A stretch of 64,000 bases of DNA, from assembly GCA_900752905.1 (NCBI GenBank), contig CAADWX010000001.1, positions 16,040 through 80,039 on the forward strand. The letters are read 5' to 3'. This stretch comes from Bacilli bacterium. GTDB lineage: Bacteria; Bacillota_I; Bacilli_A; RF39; UBA660. This document shows positions 15,928-55,400 of the stretch, in pieces; position 1 is the stretch's first letter, and each line of letters opens with the position of its first letter. A program made the translations under genes and the position numbers. The notes under the pieces were generated by a model that saw nothing but the letters and a program-made list of their open reading frames with translations, had not been told where the DNA came from and made no database searches.

Positions 15928-16476
15928 ATGTTTAAAAAATTAAAAATATTAGATGAGAAAAATAAAATATTAAGAGAAATTTCTAAAGAAGTAACTGAAC
16001 CACTTACTAAAGAAGAAAAGGAAACAATAAATCAAATAATACTTAATTTAAAATATAGTCAAATAGAAAATTTATCTAAAAAATATGATTTACGCCCTGG
16101 TATGGGTTTAGCCTTCCCTCAAATTGGAATTTTAAAACGTATTATAGTAATTGTCTATGAATATGAAGAAGGAAAATTTGAAAACTATGTTGTAGTAAAT
16201 CCAAAAATAGTTAGTAATTCAACAGAAATTATAGCTGCAGAAGCAGGAGAAGGATGTCTTAGTGTTAACAGAGAAGTTGATGGCCATGTACCAAGATATG
16301 CACGTGTTACTGTAGAAGGATTAGATACTGATGGAAATAAAATAACAATTCGAGCAAGAGAGGATTTATCTATAGCCTTTCAACATGAAATAGATCATTT
16401 AAATGGAATTCTATTTTATGATAGAATAGATAAAAATAAACCATTCTTTACAGATGATGAAATAAGATTAATATAA
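15928..16476 (+). CDS. def: Peptide deformylase
   Basis: This 182-residue metalloenzyme removes the formyl group from nascent protein N-termini. The three family motifs are visible: GMGLAFPQIG (family GxGLAAxQ), EGCLS with the metal-binding cysteine, and HEIDHLNG with both metal histidines and the catalytic glutamate. The insert between motifs and the length fit type 2 deformylases of Gram-positives. The ATG at 15928 lies 4 nt after GGTGAT; upstream GTG and ATG codons overlap that site. Followed by its own terminator. Confidence 0.95.
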   Translation: MFKKLKILDEKNKILREISKEVTEPLTKEEKETINQIILNLKYSQIENLSKKYDLRPGMGLAFPQIGILKRIIVIVYEYEEGKFENYVVVNPKIVSNSTEIIAAEAGEGCLSVNREVDGHVPRYARVTVEGLDTDGNKITIRAREDLSIAFQHEIDHLNGILFYDRIDKNKPFFTDDEIRLI

Positions 16477-47958: not shown

Positions 47959-47986
47959 CAAAAAAAGTACAATAATTTTGTACTTT
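47959..47986 (-). terminator. Terminator after the zinc-ribbon gene
   Basis: A 9-bp stem (47964-47972 with 47978-47986) and T run on the minus strand, closing the 52.4-48.0 kb operon. Confidence 0.8.
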
Positions 47987-48025: not shown

Positions 48026-49042
48026 TTACTTTATTAGATACCATTCTTGTAAATAATTTGTCTTTACACCGCAATATTCACATTCATTTTGTGTTACATC
48101 GATTGATGCTCCACAACCTCTACATTTTATTACATTAATTCCACTATTTAATTGTTCTATTTTTACATCATTTTTTTCTAATTTAATATTCTTTACCTCT
48201 TCATAAGACATTATTTTATTATTTTCTATTTTTACAATTCTCAATTTCAATTTAACACATATATATAAATTATGCTTTTCATCATATTGTTCCTTAAATT
48301 CTATATAATCAATAATATCATAATCAATTATATTTGGAATATCTTTATAAAAATAGTTTTGTAATTCATAATTAAGATTATTATAAAATGTATTTTTATT
48401 TATATCTTTCATTCTGTTCCAAAACTCTATTTGACGTTTATTAATTTTATCTTTATATATTTTTACAGGTAAAGTTATAATAAACGCATTTAGCATATAA
48501 AATACATAAAAAAGAGCTGCAGCAAGTATTATTGTATAAATAAATATTTTTGATATATCATAAACATTAAAAGTTCTTCCTGTTATTTTTATATAGCAAA
48601 ACATTATTAAAAAACTCATAATTAAATCAACAACAAAAGTTATAAATAAATATTTGCTTTCTTTAATAGCTCTATCATAATGATATTTAGCGCCTAAACT
48701 TTTATTTTCATAATCAACATTATAATATGTACCACAATAAGGACATCCTTCTTTAAAATTTTTACCAATATCACTCATACCACAATTTGGGCATTTAATT
48801 ATTTTATCATCTTCATTATTAGTTACAAATGTATATTTAATTCTTGGATCAAAATCTTTTATTTTATAAACTAATTTATTATCTTTATAATATTCTTTTT
48901 CTAATCTAATACCATCAACAATATCATTTTTTGTATTATCATCCACTACATGTAATGACTTATCATCTTTATATGTAGTTTTAATTTTTACATTATACTC
49001 ATTTAATCTATTATAATGAGCTTTATCATAAACTCTTATCAT
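48026..49042 (-). CDS. Zinc-ribbon membrane protein, possibly Tim44-like
   Basis: This 338-residue protein carries two zinc ribbons, CPNCG...CPYCG (about 89-105) and CRGCG...CEYCG (about 309-326), and two membrane helices (about 130-155 and 165-195). Between helices and the second ribbon, FWNRMKDINKNTF and following helices recall Tim44-like domains in Gram-positive zinc-ribbon proteins, an uncertain match. It starts 2 nt after the stop of the poly-Asn gene and lacks its own ribosome site, so it is translationally coupled to it. Role in the cluster unknown. Confidence 0.65.
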   Translation of the reverse strand: MIRVYDKAHYNRLNEYNVKIKTTYKDDKSLHVVDDNTKNDIVDGIRLEKEYYKDNKLVYKIKDFDPRIKYTFVTNNEDDKIIKCPNCGMSDIGKNFKEGCPYCGTYYNVDYENKSLGAKYHYDRAIKESKYLFITFVVDLIMSFLIMFCYIKITGRTFNVYDISKIFIYTIILAAALFYVFYMLNAFIITLPVKIYKDKINKRQIEFWNRMKDINKNTFYNNLNYELQNYFYKDIPNIIDYDIIDYIEFKEQYDEKHNLYICVKLKLRIVKIENNKIMSYEEVKNIKLEKNDVKIEQLNSGINVIKCRGCGASIDVTQNECEYCGVKTNYLQEWYLIK

Positions 49043-49044
49043 GT

Positions 49045-49407
49045 CTAGTTATTATTGTTATTATTATTGTTGTTGTTATTATTGTTATTAGAAGAACGGC
49101 CACTTGATGTATAATAATTTCTAGATGAACTTGGTGTATAAATTGGATATATTTTAAATTCTTTATCTGATATTTTTATACCACTTACACTTGAACAAGA
49201 AGTTGGTAAAGTTTCAACCTTTATCAAATTATTATTAGTATATAAATTAATTTTATTGCTTGATGCATATACGTTATTTTTTGGATTTTGAGATAAAAAA
49301 TTCCATATTTCTTCTAGTATTTCTTTAGGTATATCAAAATATTTTGCTAAATCAGAACACCTTTTTGTTCTAATTAAATCATTATATGTTTCTGGTTCTT
49401 TAAACAT
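49045..49407 (-). CDS. 120-residue protein with C-terminal poly-asparagine tail
   Basis: I do not recognise this protein. Residues 1-45 look like a helical leader (DLAKYFDIPKEILEEIWNFL); two cysteines lie near 17 and 71; after YPIYTP a Ser/Arg/Tyr/Gly segment (SSSRNYYTSSGRSS) leads into 14 consecutive asparagines ending the chain. There is no signal peptide. It lies 4 nt after a radical SAM/SPASM gene, the position of many modified-peptide precursors, and the Asn tail could be the substrate. A structural or scaffolding protein is the alternative. AGTGAAAG precedes the ATG. Confidence 0.7.
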   Translation of the reverse strand: MFKEPETYNDLIRTKRCSDLAKYFDIPKEILEEIWNFLSQNPKNNVYASSNKINLYTNNNLIKVETLPTSCSSVSGIKISDKEFKIYPIYTPSSSRNYYTSSGRSSNNNNNNNNNNNNNN

Positions 49408-49411
49408 ACTT

Positions 49412-51142
49412 TCACTTCCATTCTAAATAATTAAACTCTATATTTTGAAAAGGTAAATTTATTGCTTCTATATGGTAATATGCATTATTTTTTTGTTTTA
49501 AATAATGATAATCCCTAAGTGATGCTGTTGTAAAAAATATATTATTTGGATTAGTATTTGATAGATATATACTATATTCTTTTAATAAATTTGTAATATC
49601 ATAGCAATAAAAATCATCTTTATTACATTTTATTTGATTAAGTACACCTTTATATATCTGATGTGTCATTATATGTCTTTGTTTCACTCTTTTTTCATCA
49701 CCATATTGTACTGTATCTCCACTTAATAGCATAATCCAAACAGAATTGTTCTCTGGATATTCACATTCTTCATTTATTATATTTTTTCTTATATATAAAA
49801 CAACTTTACTTTTATTAGTTATATATACTATTTCCCTTGATTTTTTTAATATTTGTGACTCTAAATTATATTCATTTCCATCAATACTTAAGATAAATGA
49901 GTTTGGATCATATATATATTTTAAATGTATATCTTCCTTTATTAAATCTTCTAAATTTTTATGTTCATTATTATTTTTAACTATAAATTCATCTGCTATA
50001 TCAGGATGCATCTTACACATATAATCATACATTATAGACTTATCATTAATTGGTTCATAATTTCTTTTTTTATATAATTCTTTTTGTAGTTTGCAAGTAT
50101 AAGACTTATTAGAATTATAAATATTTTTAACAAATGGGCACCCTGTTTTACATATATATAAATACTCACAATTTTTACATTCTTCACTCATCTTTTGCAT
50201 ATTATGTGCTTTCATAATTTTTTCATAAGCATTATTTAGTATTTCTTCTATCGTATTATTGTAAATATTTCCATAATAAAATTCTTTATGTTTTTGACCT
50301 CTTACGCAAGAATAAATATCTCCATTTTTTTCAAGTAAAAAGAATTTTTCTCCACAATTATCACAATTAGTACAATAATCTGGTCCAAATTCATTAAACC
50401 ATGCCCCATTAACACCTGAATCTAAATCTGTATTATCAAAGTGTTCATGCATTTTATTAAAGAAATCTACTTGTTCTTCTTCTGTAAGTGGAGTTAATAA
50501 CCCGTTAGAATTATAATCAAATCCTATCATGAAATTAAAATCATTCATATCTAAACATGTATTTTTATTTAAATACTCTATATTTTCTATTATTTCATCG
50601 ATTCTATTATAGTGTTCTTTAAATATAGTAGCAGATACCTTTTTCTTATTTTCTAATTTATTTAATAATTCAATATTTTTTAAGATTTTATCTAATGTTT
50701 TATTATTACCTTTTGTAATTCTATATTCATCATGTAAAGAAAAAGGTAAATCCAAACTACCACTAATAGATACATTAAATTCTTTTATTGTATCTATATG
50801 TTTTTCTAAATTATATAAGTTTGTTTTTATATGTGGGGTACCAACTCTAAAACCATTTTCTTCTATTAAATTTTTATTTTCCTTATAATAGTTACTTATA
50901 TACTCTATAATATCATGAAAATCTTCTTTACTTAGAGTTGTTACTTCTCCTCCATGGAGTGAAATATTAAATGGCATCACATTATTATTTTTAAATTTAT
51001 TTATTGCATATTTTAATGTATCAATTGCTTTATATTGTTTCATTTCATCTTTTGTATTATCTTCCAAATAACAATATTTACAATTCATATTACATGCCAT
51101 AGTTGGGACATATAATAAATGTATAAATTTCATATTACTCAT
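49412..51142 (-). CDS. Radical SAM/SPASM protein-modifying enzyme
   Basis: This 576-residue enzyme binds a SAM cleaving cluster through CNMNCKYC (about residues 16-23 from the chosen start). The SPASM region has CTNCDNCG, YSCVRG and CKNCEYLYICKTGC, enough cysteines for two more clusters, as in anaerobic sulfatase maturases and RiPP enzymes. A C-terminal domain of about 200 residues without recognised fold follows and may bind the substrate. Start ATG 51142 overlaps the LRR gene stop by 8 nt; the longer frame begins 48 nt earlier. Its likely substrate is the Asn-tailed protein or the LRR protein encoded beside it. Confidence 0.85.
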   Translation of the reverse strand: MSNMKFIHLLYVPTMACNMNCKYCYLEDNTKDEMKQYKAIDTLKYAINKFKNNNVMPFNISLHGGEVTTLSKEDFHDIIEYISNYYKENKNLIEENGFRVGTPHIKTNLYNLEKHIDTIKEFNVSISGSLDLPFSLHDEYRITKGNNKTLDKILKNIELLNKLENKKKVSATIFKEHYNRIDEIIENIEYLNKNTCLDMNDFNFMIGFDYNSNGLLTPLTEEEQVDFFNKMHEHFDNTDLDSGVNGAWFNEFGPDYCTNCDNCGEKFFLLEKNGDIYSCVRGQKHKEFYYGNIYNNTIEEILNNAYEKIMKAHNMQKMSEECKNCEYLYICKTGCPFVKNIYNSNKSYTCKLQKELYKKRNYEPINDKSIMYDYMCKMHPDIADEFIVKNNNEHKNLEDLIKEDIHLKYIYDPNSFILSIDGNEYNLESQILKKSREIVYITNKSKVVLYIRKNIINEECEYPENNSVWIMLLSGDTVQYGDEKRVKQRHIMTHQIYKGVLNQIKCNKDDFYCYDITNLLKEYSIYLSNTNPNNIFFTTASLRDYHYLKQKNNAYYHIEAINLPFQNIEFNYLEWK

Positions 51143-52406
51143 CTTGATACCTATATACCAATGTTGGACTTTCTTTAAATGCTCTATCATTTACAATTGT
51201 ATCTTCTGGGATATTAATAATATCTAAAGAAAGACACTTTCTAAATGCTGAACTTCCTATTTCCTTAACCGTAGATGGAACTTTAACACTCCTTAAATTA
51301 GTACAACCGTAAAATGCATGCCCACCTATTCTTGTAACACCATATGGTATATCAATTGATTTAAGAGATGTACATTCTTCAAAAGTATTACCTCTTATTT
51401 CTGTAATATTTTTTGGTAATTTTATTTCTTCTAAATCTGAACAATTTTTAAATACTGAACCATGTATAGATGTTATATTATCATGTAATTTAACATATTT
51501 TAAACTTGAACATCCTTCAAAAGTACTACCATTTATTTCTTTAACACCACTAGGTATCTCTATTGATATAAGAGAGCTACAATTCTTAAATGCACTACCA
51601 CCTAAATATGTTAAATTTTTAGGTAAATTAATCTTTTCCAAAGAATAGTCATTTTCAAATGCTCTTCCTCTTATAACTTCAATAGAATCAGGTAAATTAA
51701 TTTCTTTTATAAGTTTCATATTACTGAATACTTTTCCTCTTATTCCAATAACTTTTTCATTTTTATATGTAGATGGAATCGTAACTGTTTCAAAATTAGT
51801 GATTCCATATGTATAAAATCTTACATAATATCCTTCATCTGTCTTTTCATAAAAAGTATGTGGCTTTATAAAAAATAGAATTGAAAAAAAGCTAACAATA
51901 ATTATAATCATTCTTATAAATAGTAAAGATTTACCTGAGCCTTGAACTTTTGAAGATATAATATAAGATATTTTTTCATCTGGTCTTGCTTTAATTTGTT
52001 TTTTTAAATAACTTACTGTATTTACTTTATTCATCATAATTATATACACTATTATATTTAAAATTTCAAATAAATATTTATAAGAAAATGTATGAAAAAA
52101 TATACAACAAATAAAAACAATATTTAATAAAGAAAAAATACAAGTTAATATAATTTTAATATTCTCAACGGATTTCAATTTTATCTTTTCAACATTTTGT
52201 TTTTTTAATTCACTTCTTACCATTTGTTCAAGTAATTGCTTATCATTTAAGTTATATATTGGATTAAGAGTATATTGTGAACTATTTTGTATTTTAATAT
52301 TACCCATTGTAACAGGACTTGAATCTATTTTTGATGAAGATTTTACCTGCTTTACAATAATAAAAATAATAACTACTATAAATATAATATTAAACATAAT
52401 TCTCAC
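51135..52406 (-). CDS. Membrane protein with BspA-type leucine-rich repeats
   Basis: This 423-residue protein has an N-terminal helix (2-20), a linker, three more hydrophobic segments (about 83-105, 107-125, 160-182), and about nine LRR_5 repeats (about 200-415) of 23 residues with the pattern LPDSIEVIRGRAFENDYSL and FKNCSSL. BspA-type repeats are usually cell-surface binding modules. Membrane helices ahead of the repeats are not usual for BspA proteins. It heads the four-gene operon ending at 48026 and overlaps the radical SAM gene. Confidence 0.82.
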   Translation of the reverse strand: MRIMFNIIFIVVIIFIIVKQVKSSSKIDSSPVTMGNIKIQNSSQYTLNPIYNLNDKQLLEQMVRSELKKQNVEKIKLKSVENIKIILTCIFSLLNIVFICCIFFHTFSYKYLFEILNIIVYIIMMNKVNTVSYLKKQIKARPDEKISYIISSKVQGSGKSLLFIRMIIIIVSFFSILFFIKPHTFYEKTDEGYYVRFYTYGITNFETVTIPSTYKNEKVIGIRGKVFSNMKLIKEINLPDSIEVIRGRAFENDYSLEKINLPKNLTYLGGSAFKNCSSLISIEIPSGVKEINGSTFEGCSSLKYVKLHDNITSIHGSVFKNCSDLEEIKLPKNITEIRGNTFEECTSLKSIDIPYGVTRIGGHAFYGCTNLRSVKVPSTVKEIGSSAFRKCLSLDIINIPEDTIVNDRAFKESPTLVYRYQDE

Positions 52407-52423
52407 CTATTATTGATTATAGC

Positions 52424-52451
52424 AAAAAAAAGACTTTTTTAGAAGTCTTTT
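52424..52451 (-). terminator. Terminator after the MMPL gene
   Basis: A 9-bp stem (52428-52436 with 52443-52451) overlaps the MMPL stop and is followed by Ts on the minus strand. Confidence 0.75.
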
Positions 52452-55400
52452 ATTTAAATAATTTTTTTGTTCTATCAGCAATGGTTTCTTTTTTTGCTGA
52501 TTCTTCTTTTTTAGTTACTTTGTTTTCTTTCTTTTCACCATCTATTACAAGTATAAATTTACTACTAGCTTCATTATCACCACTTAAATTCATTGTTTTA
52601 TATTCTTCACTTAATTTAACTAGTGAATTTACTCTTGTAGAGTATGTTTTTAATGTATTACTCATACTTGATAATTTCTTTATACCATCATTATTAAATG
52701 TTACTATTCCATCATTTAAAGTAGTCATTCCATTTTTAAGGTTTGTTGTACCAGCTGTAAGTTCATTCATCTTACCACTTAGTGTAGTCATTCCACTACT
52801 TAATTGAGAAGTACCTGATGATAATTTACTTGTTCCTATTTTTATTTGGTTTAAATATGTTTTTAATGTTGTTATTGTTGTAGTTATTTTTGTATTAACT
52901 TCATTAAATGTATTTAAAGATGTTTTTAAAGCTTCATTATTTGTTTTTAAAAGAGTTAACATTTCAACATTTTTTGAATATGTATTTTCATAAGTAAATT
53001 TAATATTATATAAATCTATTTCTGTTGGAGCATTTAATATTTCTTCATATGTTTTATTTGCTAAAGCATATTTAGTATAATTTTCTTTCAATGAACTTGT
53101 TGATGTTTCAAGAGATTTTATAACTTCTTCATTCTTTGATATTAATAATTTCATATTTTCAATATTTTGCAATGTCTCTTTATTATTTAAAACTTCACTT
53201 GATTTATCTAATTGTTGTATTATTTGTTCTAATCCATTATCTACTGAAATACTACCATTTTTTATTTCATCTAATTTTTGTGATACAATTTTTAAGTTAT
53301 CATTTATTTTAATACTTCCATCTTCAACACTAGTTATACCATCTAAAGCTTTTTTTGAACCTTCTTCTATTTTATCAATTGAAGATTGTAATAATTCTAC
53401 ACTACTGTATAAAGAATTTAAGTTAACTAAACTGTTTATATCTTTACTACTTATTAATTTTGGAGTAATAATTGAATAAATTGATGATAATTCAAAATTT
53501 TTAGTATTATATTTTATAGTTATTTTATTAAAATCTTTTAAATCATTTATACGAGTACTTTCATAAAGGCCTGGTGATGATAAACCTACTAATACATAAG
53601 AGTTTCCATTATTTACAACCTTACCATTAGTTATTGTTACATCACTATTATTTTCTACTGGTATAACTGTAGATGTAGCTACAACAAAAGGAGTATATAA
53701 ATTTTCATATCTTCCATTTATATATTTATTATGTTTATCTAAATTTGTGTAAGTAATATTTATCTCAATATTCCCACTTTTACCTAATATGTCTTTTAAA
53801 TCTTTTTCTTCACCATTTAATTTATAAGTAACAGATTCAGTTATAGGTAATTGTTTTTTTGTTGTACCTTGATAAAATATATCTTCTCCTTTAGCATCCC
53901 AAGTTAAAAGAGTATTTTCTGATTTAAATTTATTATTACTATTAGTATTAGTAATATTCTCTAAATCTGAATAATCAATAATTGAATCTAATTTTTCATC
54001 ATTTATTAGATGTTCATTTACAGTAGTAGATTTTACACTACCATCACTATTTAATTTAGCATATACAGTTTCTTCTTTTGTTAGTGCATAAGATACATTT
54101 GGTAATAATGCACATGAAGTAATTAGAAAAGCAGCAAGTACTTTTTTCGCTTTATTTATTGTTTTCTTTTTCATTTTATTCATTCCTTTCATACCCAAAG
54201 TAGTTTTTATTATTAATTTATCAAAAACTAATAATATTGAAGGAAGTACAGTTATAACAACTATCATACTTATAATTGCACCTCTAGATATTAATGTACA
54301 TAATGATCCAACCATTTCTAGATCAGAATATAAACCAACACCAAATGTTGCTGCAAAGAAACACATTCCACTTACAAATATCGAATTAGAACAATAATCT
54401 AATGATTTTTCTATAGCTTCAAATTTGTTATTTCCTTGTTTTCTTAAATTAATAAAATTAGTAGTCAATAGAATTGCATAATCAATTGTTGCTCCAAGTT
54501 GAATTGTTCCAAGAACTATTGGCGCTACAAAAGGAAGTACTGAACCTGAAAAATAAGATATTCCCATATTTGTAAATATTGCAGCTTCTATTGCTAAAAT
54601 CAATAATATTGGAAGTGATACTGATTTTAGAACAAATAACATTACTATTAATATAAAGAATATAGAAGATGTATTTACACTATTAAAATCTTCATCACTT
54701 ATTGTAACTAAATCTTTCATTAGCGGACCTTCTCCAGCTAATATAGCATTTTTATCATATTTTTTTATTATTGTATTAATACTATCTACTTGATTATTTA
54801 ATTCATCTGTAGCGACATCATATTCAGAATTTAATAACATCATTTGATATTTATCACTTTCAAATACTTTTAATAAATCATCACTTAACATATTTCTTGT
54901 TATACCAAGTTCTTCTACTTTAGAAAATGATAATACAAAATCAATGCCATCTAATGATTCTATTTCTGATACCATCTTTTCTTGATCAGATGCTTTCATA
55001 TTTTTATCAACTAATATAATTTCTGCAGAAACTATATTAAATTTTTCTTTTAATTTTTCATTAGCTACTATACTATGTAAATTTTTTGGTAAACTTTCAT
55101 CAATTTTATAATAAACACTTACCTTACTATTTGCTTTATAAAGTGGTATAAGCAATATAATAAATACAATAAATATTGCTTTATAATGTTTAATTACAAA
55201 TTTATTTATTCCTTTAAAACTAAATTTAATAGCTTTATGTTTAGTTTTCTCTATTAGTGAATCAAATGTAAGAAGTAAACTTGGGAACAAAGTTAAAACA
55301 CATACTACTCCTAAAAATACACCTTTAGCCATTACAAGCCCTAAATCTTTACCAAGAGTTAAATTCATTGTACAAAGAACTAGAAATCCAACAATTGTTG

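Follow-up and report, generated by a model that had tools for sequence, protein, structure and literature searches.

A candidate radical SAM/SPASM modification system for C-terminal asparagine tails in Bacilli and Campylobacter prophages

What does a radical S-adenosylmethionine (SAM) enzyme act upon when the next gene encodes a small protein that ends in 14 asparagines? The question is raised by a four-gene operon on contig CAADWX010000001.1 of a Bacilli bacterium (assembly GCA_900752905.1), within a stretch of 64,000 nucleotides (positions 16,040 to 80,039 of the contig) that is here called the window. An earlier note on this DNA had described four minus-strand genes and had proposed the Asn-tailed protein as the substrate of the enzyme. 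ORF calling and direct reading of the window recovered all four open reading frames (ORFs) at the positions claimed, and these are given here together with the codons of the tail.

49412..51142, minus strand: radical SAM/SPASM enzyme, 576 aa, likely start at 51142 (Pfam/NCBIfam, alignment of 27 sequences)
49045..49407, minus strand: putative substrate, 120 aa, with a C-terminal Asn14 (ORF, alignment, AlphaFold2)
49048..49089, minus strand: coding stretch of the Asn tail, 14 codons, 6 AAC and 8 AAT (codon reading)
51135..52406, minus strand: BspA-type leucine-rich repeat (LRR) membrane protein, 423 aa by the longest ORF, likely start ATG 52397 behind AGGTGAG
48026..49042, minus strand: zinc-ribbon protein, apparently with two transmembrane segments, and with CxxC pairs towards either end (domain scan)

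These genes quite probably encode a dedicated modification system, in which a radical SAM/SPASM maturase would act on C-terminal Asn tails and work with the LRR protein. The system would represent a new form of radical SAM maturation, the unusual substrate of which is the Asn tail. The role of substrate that had been proposed for the small protein is supported by its pairing with the enzyme, by co-occurrence across genomes and by a comparison with phage tail fibres, though the role itself stays putative.

The pairing was read from 81 loci, namely the window and 80 genome loci kept from 112 relatives in one scan of genome contigs. The enzyme was called as an ORF in 78 of these and was recovered by profile in L051, L065 and L078. 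With L017 and L057 left out, where the contig ends behind the enzyme, the small protein lies directly downstream of the enzyme and on the same strand in 79 of 79 loci with room. The arrangement by which ribosomally synthesised and post-translationally modified peptides (RiPPs) are recognised, a gene-encoded precursor adjacent to the modifying enzyme, is accordingly found at each of them, and the pattern that would have counted against the earlier note, enzyme homologues consistently lacking a small neighbour, was not seen. All of the 76 next ORFs match a tail-less profile of the small protein (A3; worst E value 8.5e-14), 46 of them being themselves rows of that profile, and the remaining three came from the profile search. 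An Asn run of at least four residues is visible in 76 of the 79 small proteins; in L025 and L032 the contig stops before the tail, and L003 shifts frame there, while L004, from the same metagenome-assembled genome and with an identical N-terminus, reads into the tail. Tails were measured in 73 cases, 11 of them cut by a contig end. The 62 complete tails comprise 5-20 Asn (median 13), are C-terminal in every case and are followed by Arg (24), nothing (15), Gly (8), His (7), Ser (4), Ala (3) or another residue (1). None of 811 other ORFs of at least 100 aa in the same loci ends in four or more Asn, and in the window the run of the small protein is the only AAY run of at least six codons. Because the pair recurs in dozens of genomes and none of the 811 other ORFs is so ended, the Asn run is beyond chance. 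Contigs often end in or just before the tail (L002, L004, L005, L025, L027, L028, L031, L032, L037, L041, L049, L050 and L068, as well as genomes G169 and G075); the repeat therefore probably interrupts assembly, and counts of the cassette may be too low.

The small protein is composed of a predicted folded domain (residues 1-90), a spacer that is Ser/Tyr-rich in the window, and the terminal Asn14. AlphaFold2 assigns residues 1-90 a per-residue confidence (pLDDT) of 85-97, taken in blocks of ten, and the spacer and tail 46-63. Across homologues the spacer is usually Ser/Gly-rich and the terminal run mostly 10-16 Asn; across 58 aligned small proteins Ser105 never varies, and at least 90% keep Thr7, Gly103 and Asn107-117. 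A PDB sequence search with the small protein gave no match, and a word-based protein search, of low recall, gave 15.

The enzyme belongs to the radical SAM superfamily: PF04055 scores 41.5 bits against a cut-off of 29.5, PF13353 also exceeds its Pfam cut-off, and the cluster motif CX3CX2C is represented by the invariant C17, C21 and C24. Further Cys residues stand at C257, C260, C263, C279, C322, C325, C331, C335 and C350, and all 12 are invariant among 27 aligned sequences. The SPASM motif, CX9-15GX4C ... CX2CX5CX3C ... C, is found as C263-G274-C279, C322/325/331/335 and C350, with PF13186 at 26.6 bits (cut-off 21.5) and the SPASM domain model TIGR04085 at 46.5 bits (cut-off 27). From about residue 400 there follows an extra C-terminal domain of about 180 residues, which is conserved and family-specific. 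Among the best 25 of 40 matching NCBIfam models no full-length maturase model scored above its cut-off, and TIGR04085 alone passed. By structure comparison the fold is nearest to anSMEcpe, ChlB, CteB and SuiB, the substrates of which are proteins or precursor peptides. A PDB sequence search with the single enzyme sequence gave no match, and the enzyme profile reached ChlB only weakly (E 0.26).

Co-occurrence was followed in 241 genomes of one order, with thresholds of E <= 1e-60 for the enzyme and E <= 1e-5 for the small protein. The enzyme is present in 12 and the small protein in 13, and in all 12 enzyme genomes the coordinates place the two side by side. The thirteenth genome, G139, has its small-protein match starting 226 nt from a contig start; save for this contig-edge case, the small protein was not found without the enzyme in the 241 genomes, whereas the earlier note would have been refuted by a wide occurrence of that kind. 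A poly-Asn DNA pattern occurs in 49 of the 241, including 11 of the 12 enzyme carriers, the contig of the other (G169) ending at the tail. In enzyme-free genomes the poly-Asn runs are mostly not C-terminal (30 loci read, 19 pattern-positive genomes left out). Among such runs, L100, L101, L103, L104 and L108 hold ORFs of about 520-580 codons in which long stretches of Asn lie internally beside a VKTTV-like sequence, and these are an unrelated poly-Asn family.

Outside this order the enzyme is rare. Of 291 genomes sampled from a Clostridia-type class two have it, G003 and G004, and of 247 sampled from a Bacteroidota order likewise two, G005 and G594; all of these but G594 had already been known, and neither sample gave a further enzyme down to E 1e-40. 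The cassette is also present in a complete genome, that of Lachnospiraceae bacterium GAM79 (record AP018536). In the enzyme tree, Lachnospiraceae-titled rows fall among Bacilli-titled rows, and there is one Bacteroidota clade. This mixing and the patchy presence suggest horizontal transfer of the cassette, within the limits that bins and record titles set. In L051 and L065 (genomes G009 and G786) an in-frame TGA falls at a conserved Gly in 11 of 11 and 15 of 16 columns, respectively. The 16S of G009 shares 72% identity with that of GAM79, and its full-length matches in the plasmid collection, from several phyla, stand at about 70% (15 of 568 rows). A cassette-carrying bacterium thus seems to use a code of the Absconditabacteria type (table 25).

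The phage-fibre comparison is independent support for the pairing of enzyme and Asn tail. A scan of viral contigs with the window enzyme gave no relative, and tblastn (E 1e-30) gave one match in a phage collection, Campylobacter phage CAM-P21, and one in a plasmid collection, a C. coli plasmid, each 34% identical over 98% of the length. The CAM-P21 enzyme (WKW83149.1) is thus homologous throughout, including the C-terminal domain, and by alignment the phage enzymes keep the SPASM Cys residues and CTNC[DT]NC. Its gene lies within the tail module of the prophage, and the tail fibre encoded two genes upstream ends SGSTNNNNY, so that an Asn-ended partner recurs. The CAM-P21 locus differs from the window in that this partner is a tail fibre, that the fibre and enzyme genes are separated by one of about 211 aa, and that no LRR or zinc-ribbon gene is annotated in the 13.7 kb viewed. 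The Campylobacter prophages that carry the enzyme are Mu-like.

Altogether 14 enzyme-bearing phage-type records were read: CAM-P21, the C. coli plasmid and 12 viral contigs, the close protein matches of which are named Campylobacter. In all 14 the fibre ends in 2-5 Asn with at most one residue after them (NNNNY in nine, GNNF in three, NNNNN and GNNS in one each). The fibres of L131 and L133 have the same kind of end in spite of quite different beginnings. When the fibre N-terminus was used for a scan of its own, 28 loci were recovered, two of them cut; over the 146-150 residues matched, identity to the query was 87-100%. Among these shared-N-terminus fibres, all seven with the enzyme end in Asn (NNNNY in five, GNNF in two; six distinct last-40 stretches), whereas none of the 19 without it has NN in its last ten residues (11 distinct ends). 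Of these 19 enzyme-free loci, 15 have at least 3 kb of room, and in L167 the fibre, at 197 aa, is possibly broken. The split gives a Fisher p of 1.5e-6, and counting only runs of at least three Asn (5/7 versus 0/19) p is 3.2e-4, both values uncorrected for kinship. The gene of about 211 aa stands between fibre and enzyme in 14 of 14 records (e.g., L117:5351-5986) and was not found in shared-N-terminus fibre loci without the enzyme; its product is possibly an adaptor or chaperone and has no significant similarity to the small protein. Profile and BLAST comparisons of the CAM-P21 fibre with the small protein likewise gave nothing beyond low-scoring matches. Other radical SAM genes are described in virulent Campylobacter phages (PMC2853527).

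Several observations weigh against an enzyme dedicated to Asn tails. The fibre has no more than two terminal Asn in four of the 14 records, single positions of the small-protein tail can be Lys, His, Thr or Ser, and the tail varies in length. The prophage records are interrelated, so the split of seven and 19 does not represent that many independent events. Genome G215, in which no enzyme was detected, has an unrelated ORF (L090; about 300 codons) with the end N12-S-N6-R, which means that a C-terminus of this kind can occur without the enzyme. Finally, a distant viral relative of the enzyme (L144:6681-8510; 39% in the C-terminal domain, with the middle Cys of CTNC[DT]NC missing) has no convincing Asn-ended neighbour, only an overlapping frame of 30 codons that ends NN. 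Weak partial matches (L123-L127, 21-35% identity) were left out of all counts.

All that the small protein and the fibre have in common is the enzyme and a C-terminus rich in Asn, which mostly follow Ser, Thr or Gly; the Asn run is therefore the likely site of modification. It could instead be a recognition or delivery signal, the enzyme altering another residue such as the invariant Ser or the nearly invariant Gly before the run. This is unlikely: in the phage ends SMGNNS, STGNNF and YSCNNNNN the residues before the Asn vary and the Asn are kept, and 13 Asn are not obviously needed for a signal. The anaerobic sulfatase-maturating enzymes (anSMEs), the nearest solved fold, oxidise Ser or Cys; in the window enzyme, however, the SPASM Cys C279 is followed by Val and not by the Asp that is the base of anSME.

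Less probable still is an ordinary secreted RiPP, in which the tail would be a core peptide that is cleaved and exported as a small bioactive molecule. A short gene beside a SPASM enzyme, with a conserved N-terminal domain and a tail of variable length, would suit such a pathway. However, BLAST clustering of 78 loci gave only four recurrent families, the enzyme (78), the small protein (68), the LRR protein (64) and the zinc-ribbon protein (43), and no peptidase or transporter was recognised among these fixed-place families; the next family, by eye an ABC-type ATPase, occurs in eight of the 78 loci at scattered positions. In the phages, moreover, the counterpart is the C-terminus of a structural fibre.

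Codon use bears on the tail itself. In 71 loci, including the window, the Asn tails have AAC at 373 of 874 codons, where the Asn codon use of other called ORFs within the same locus predicts 216.6 (standard deviation 11.6, z 13.5). Where AAC use is low (44 loci), 213 of 571 tail codons are AAC against 73.6 expected; where it is high (12 loci), 75 of 125 are AAC against 72.2 expected, which is no difference. The window tail has AAC in six of 14 codons against a local AAC share of 7.6%. An AAC excess in AT-rich genomes is the opposite of a pure slipped repeat and points to protein-level selection, which suggests that the tail is selected for its protein sequence. That the tail arises in AT-rich genomes by slippage or as low-complexity sequence, with the enzyme acting elsewhere, for example on the LRR protein, is disfavoured and very improbable, for although the window has a GC content of 24% and other poly-Asn tracts occur in such genomes, the tail is kept with mixed codons in loci of 0.46-0.65 GC (L043, L045, L075, L076, L080), is always C-terminal when complete, and has its likeness on a dissimilar phage protein beside the same enzyme family, with no LRR gene annotated in the stretch viewed.

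How far, then, does an Asn-tail maturase resemble known systems? The window enzyme scores 92 bits with the anSME model TIGR03942 (cut-off 349.45) and falls well outside that family (PDB 4k36-4k39), from which it also differs by its extra C-terminal domain of about 180 residues and by its partner, an Asn-tailed protein, with no sulfatase among the recurrent cassette genes. Its best NCBIfam match is DynA (NF041298), at 98 bits against a cut-off of 450. Among the dynobactin, triceptide and ranthipeptide maturases (DynA, XncB, OscB, CteB) several reactions bond at Asn Cbeta, an established site of SPASM enzymes that PMC11002830 describes for triceptides, dynobactin and one ranthipeptide; in the cases drawn on here the bond partner is an aromatic residue, His or Cys. 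In the present family 15 of 73 tails have no Phe, Trp, Tyr, His or Cys in the run or the preceding 12 residues, and L015 has none in 18, so a bond to a nearby aromatic residue or Cys cannot be the rule throughout the family. Likewise, the aromatic residue two positions from the bonded residue in triceptides has no counterpart here, the runs being mostly plain Asn. TvgB, like TigE a poly-cyclopropylglycine maturase, modifies a repeated core (PMC9062424). That of TvgA consists of repeating TVGG modified at Val, and the tvg cluster has peptidase and transporter genes, whereas the core of the window family is an Asn run at the extreme C-terminus of a folded protein. Among the matches listed from open-licence PubMed Central papers, no Asn-tail radical SAM system is described.

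The enzyme would bind the folded small protein, probably via its N-terminal domain (about residues 1-90), and modify the tail Asn repeatedly by hydrogen abstraction, by precedent most likely at Cbeta. The modified protein would act at the cell envelope with its operon neighbour, the LRR membrane protein, and the zinc-ribbon membrane protein would be an accessory in part of the family. We infer the chemical modification of the tail and the reacting atom, and likewise the envelope or surface-binding role, the last because of the fibre end and the LRR membrane partner. Epimerisation, desaturation, Asn-Asn links and links between side chain and backbone are candidate chemistries.

It is an even call, taken as a whole, whether these systems form an undescribed modification class, radical SAM remodelling of C-terminal oligo-Asn on folded proteins, with which prophages would finish the tips of receptor-binding fibres, the modified end being the surface-binding tip, and which gut Bacillota, Bacteroidota and probably a lineage that reads TGA as Gly would use on a small envelope protein. 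Most known SPASM substrates are short peptides, the core residues of which are Cys, aromatic or small. PMC11002830 gives the same account. If the class is real, the range of radical SAM substrates would widen to the Asn-run C-termini of folded proteins, and peptide-modifying chemistry would be tied to surface recognition through an enzyme family found beside phage tail fibres.

The LRR protein has a strong LRR_5 match (Pfam, E 1.1e-60), and membrane segments precede its C-terminal LRR_5 domain, which is probably extracellular from a positive-inside reading by eye. By profile it adjoins the enzyme upstream in 70 of 78 loci, 76 of which have 1200 nt of upstream room, and a functional partnership is plausible. 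The zinc-ribbon protein is an optional member of the cassette: of the 61 loci that leave it 1500 nt of room, 42 have the gene, and in the 241-genome sample it occurs in nine of the 12 enzyme genomes and in G139. The part of anchor, sensor or export partner that the earlier note gave to these two membrane proteins would thus be conjectural. With midpoint rooting, 16 of the 19 loci without it form one basal clade, whereas in a quick tree rooted on the phage enzymes the sampled zinc-ribbon-less loci split into two groups; as the rootings differ, neither gain nor loss is claimed. A Tim44-like C-terminal domain was considered for this protein and rejected, since a Pfam scan of 12 members has no such family among its best 25 of 56 matches, which are mostly zinc-ribbon models. 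A lone diverged relative occurs in G236 (L115:7923-8957) and a decayed copy with stops in G017 (L116), both with no enzyme or small protein in the fetched stretch.

The limits of the operon in the window are marked by two further features.

47959..47986, minus strand: AT-rich terminator-like hairpin at the operon end (folding versus 200 shuffles)
52421..52452 (about), minus strand: inverted repeat and T run that set the operon apart from the MMPL gene upstream (read directly)

The single terminator that the earlier note had placed at the operon end holds up: the hairpin folds at -12.1 kcal/mol (z -4.07), and none of 200 shuffles is as low. A terminator consensus scan missed it, the stretch being too AT-rich for the consensus. 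The overlaps or gaps of at most 4 nt stood only in part, since the gaps of 4 nt and 2 nt agree and the overlap of the LRR and radical SAM genes is larger, namely 8 nt with ATG 51142 as the start of the enzyme, or 56 nt with the longest ORF. The downstream neighbour is a SpoVD-type penicillin-binding protein (TIGR02214 above cut-off), and the upstream one is an MMPL-family gene that does not recur among the other loci. Upstream of the LRR gene, L046, L058, L060 and L062 have in common a membrane protein of about 530 aa, preceded in L046 and L060 by a protein of 185 aa; these look like DUF2207 and LemA.

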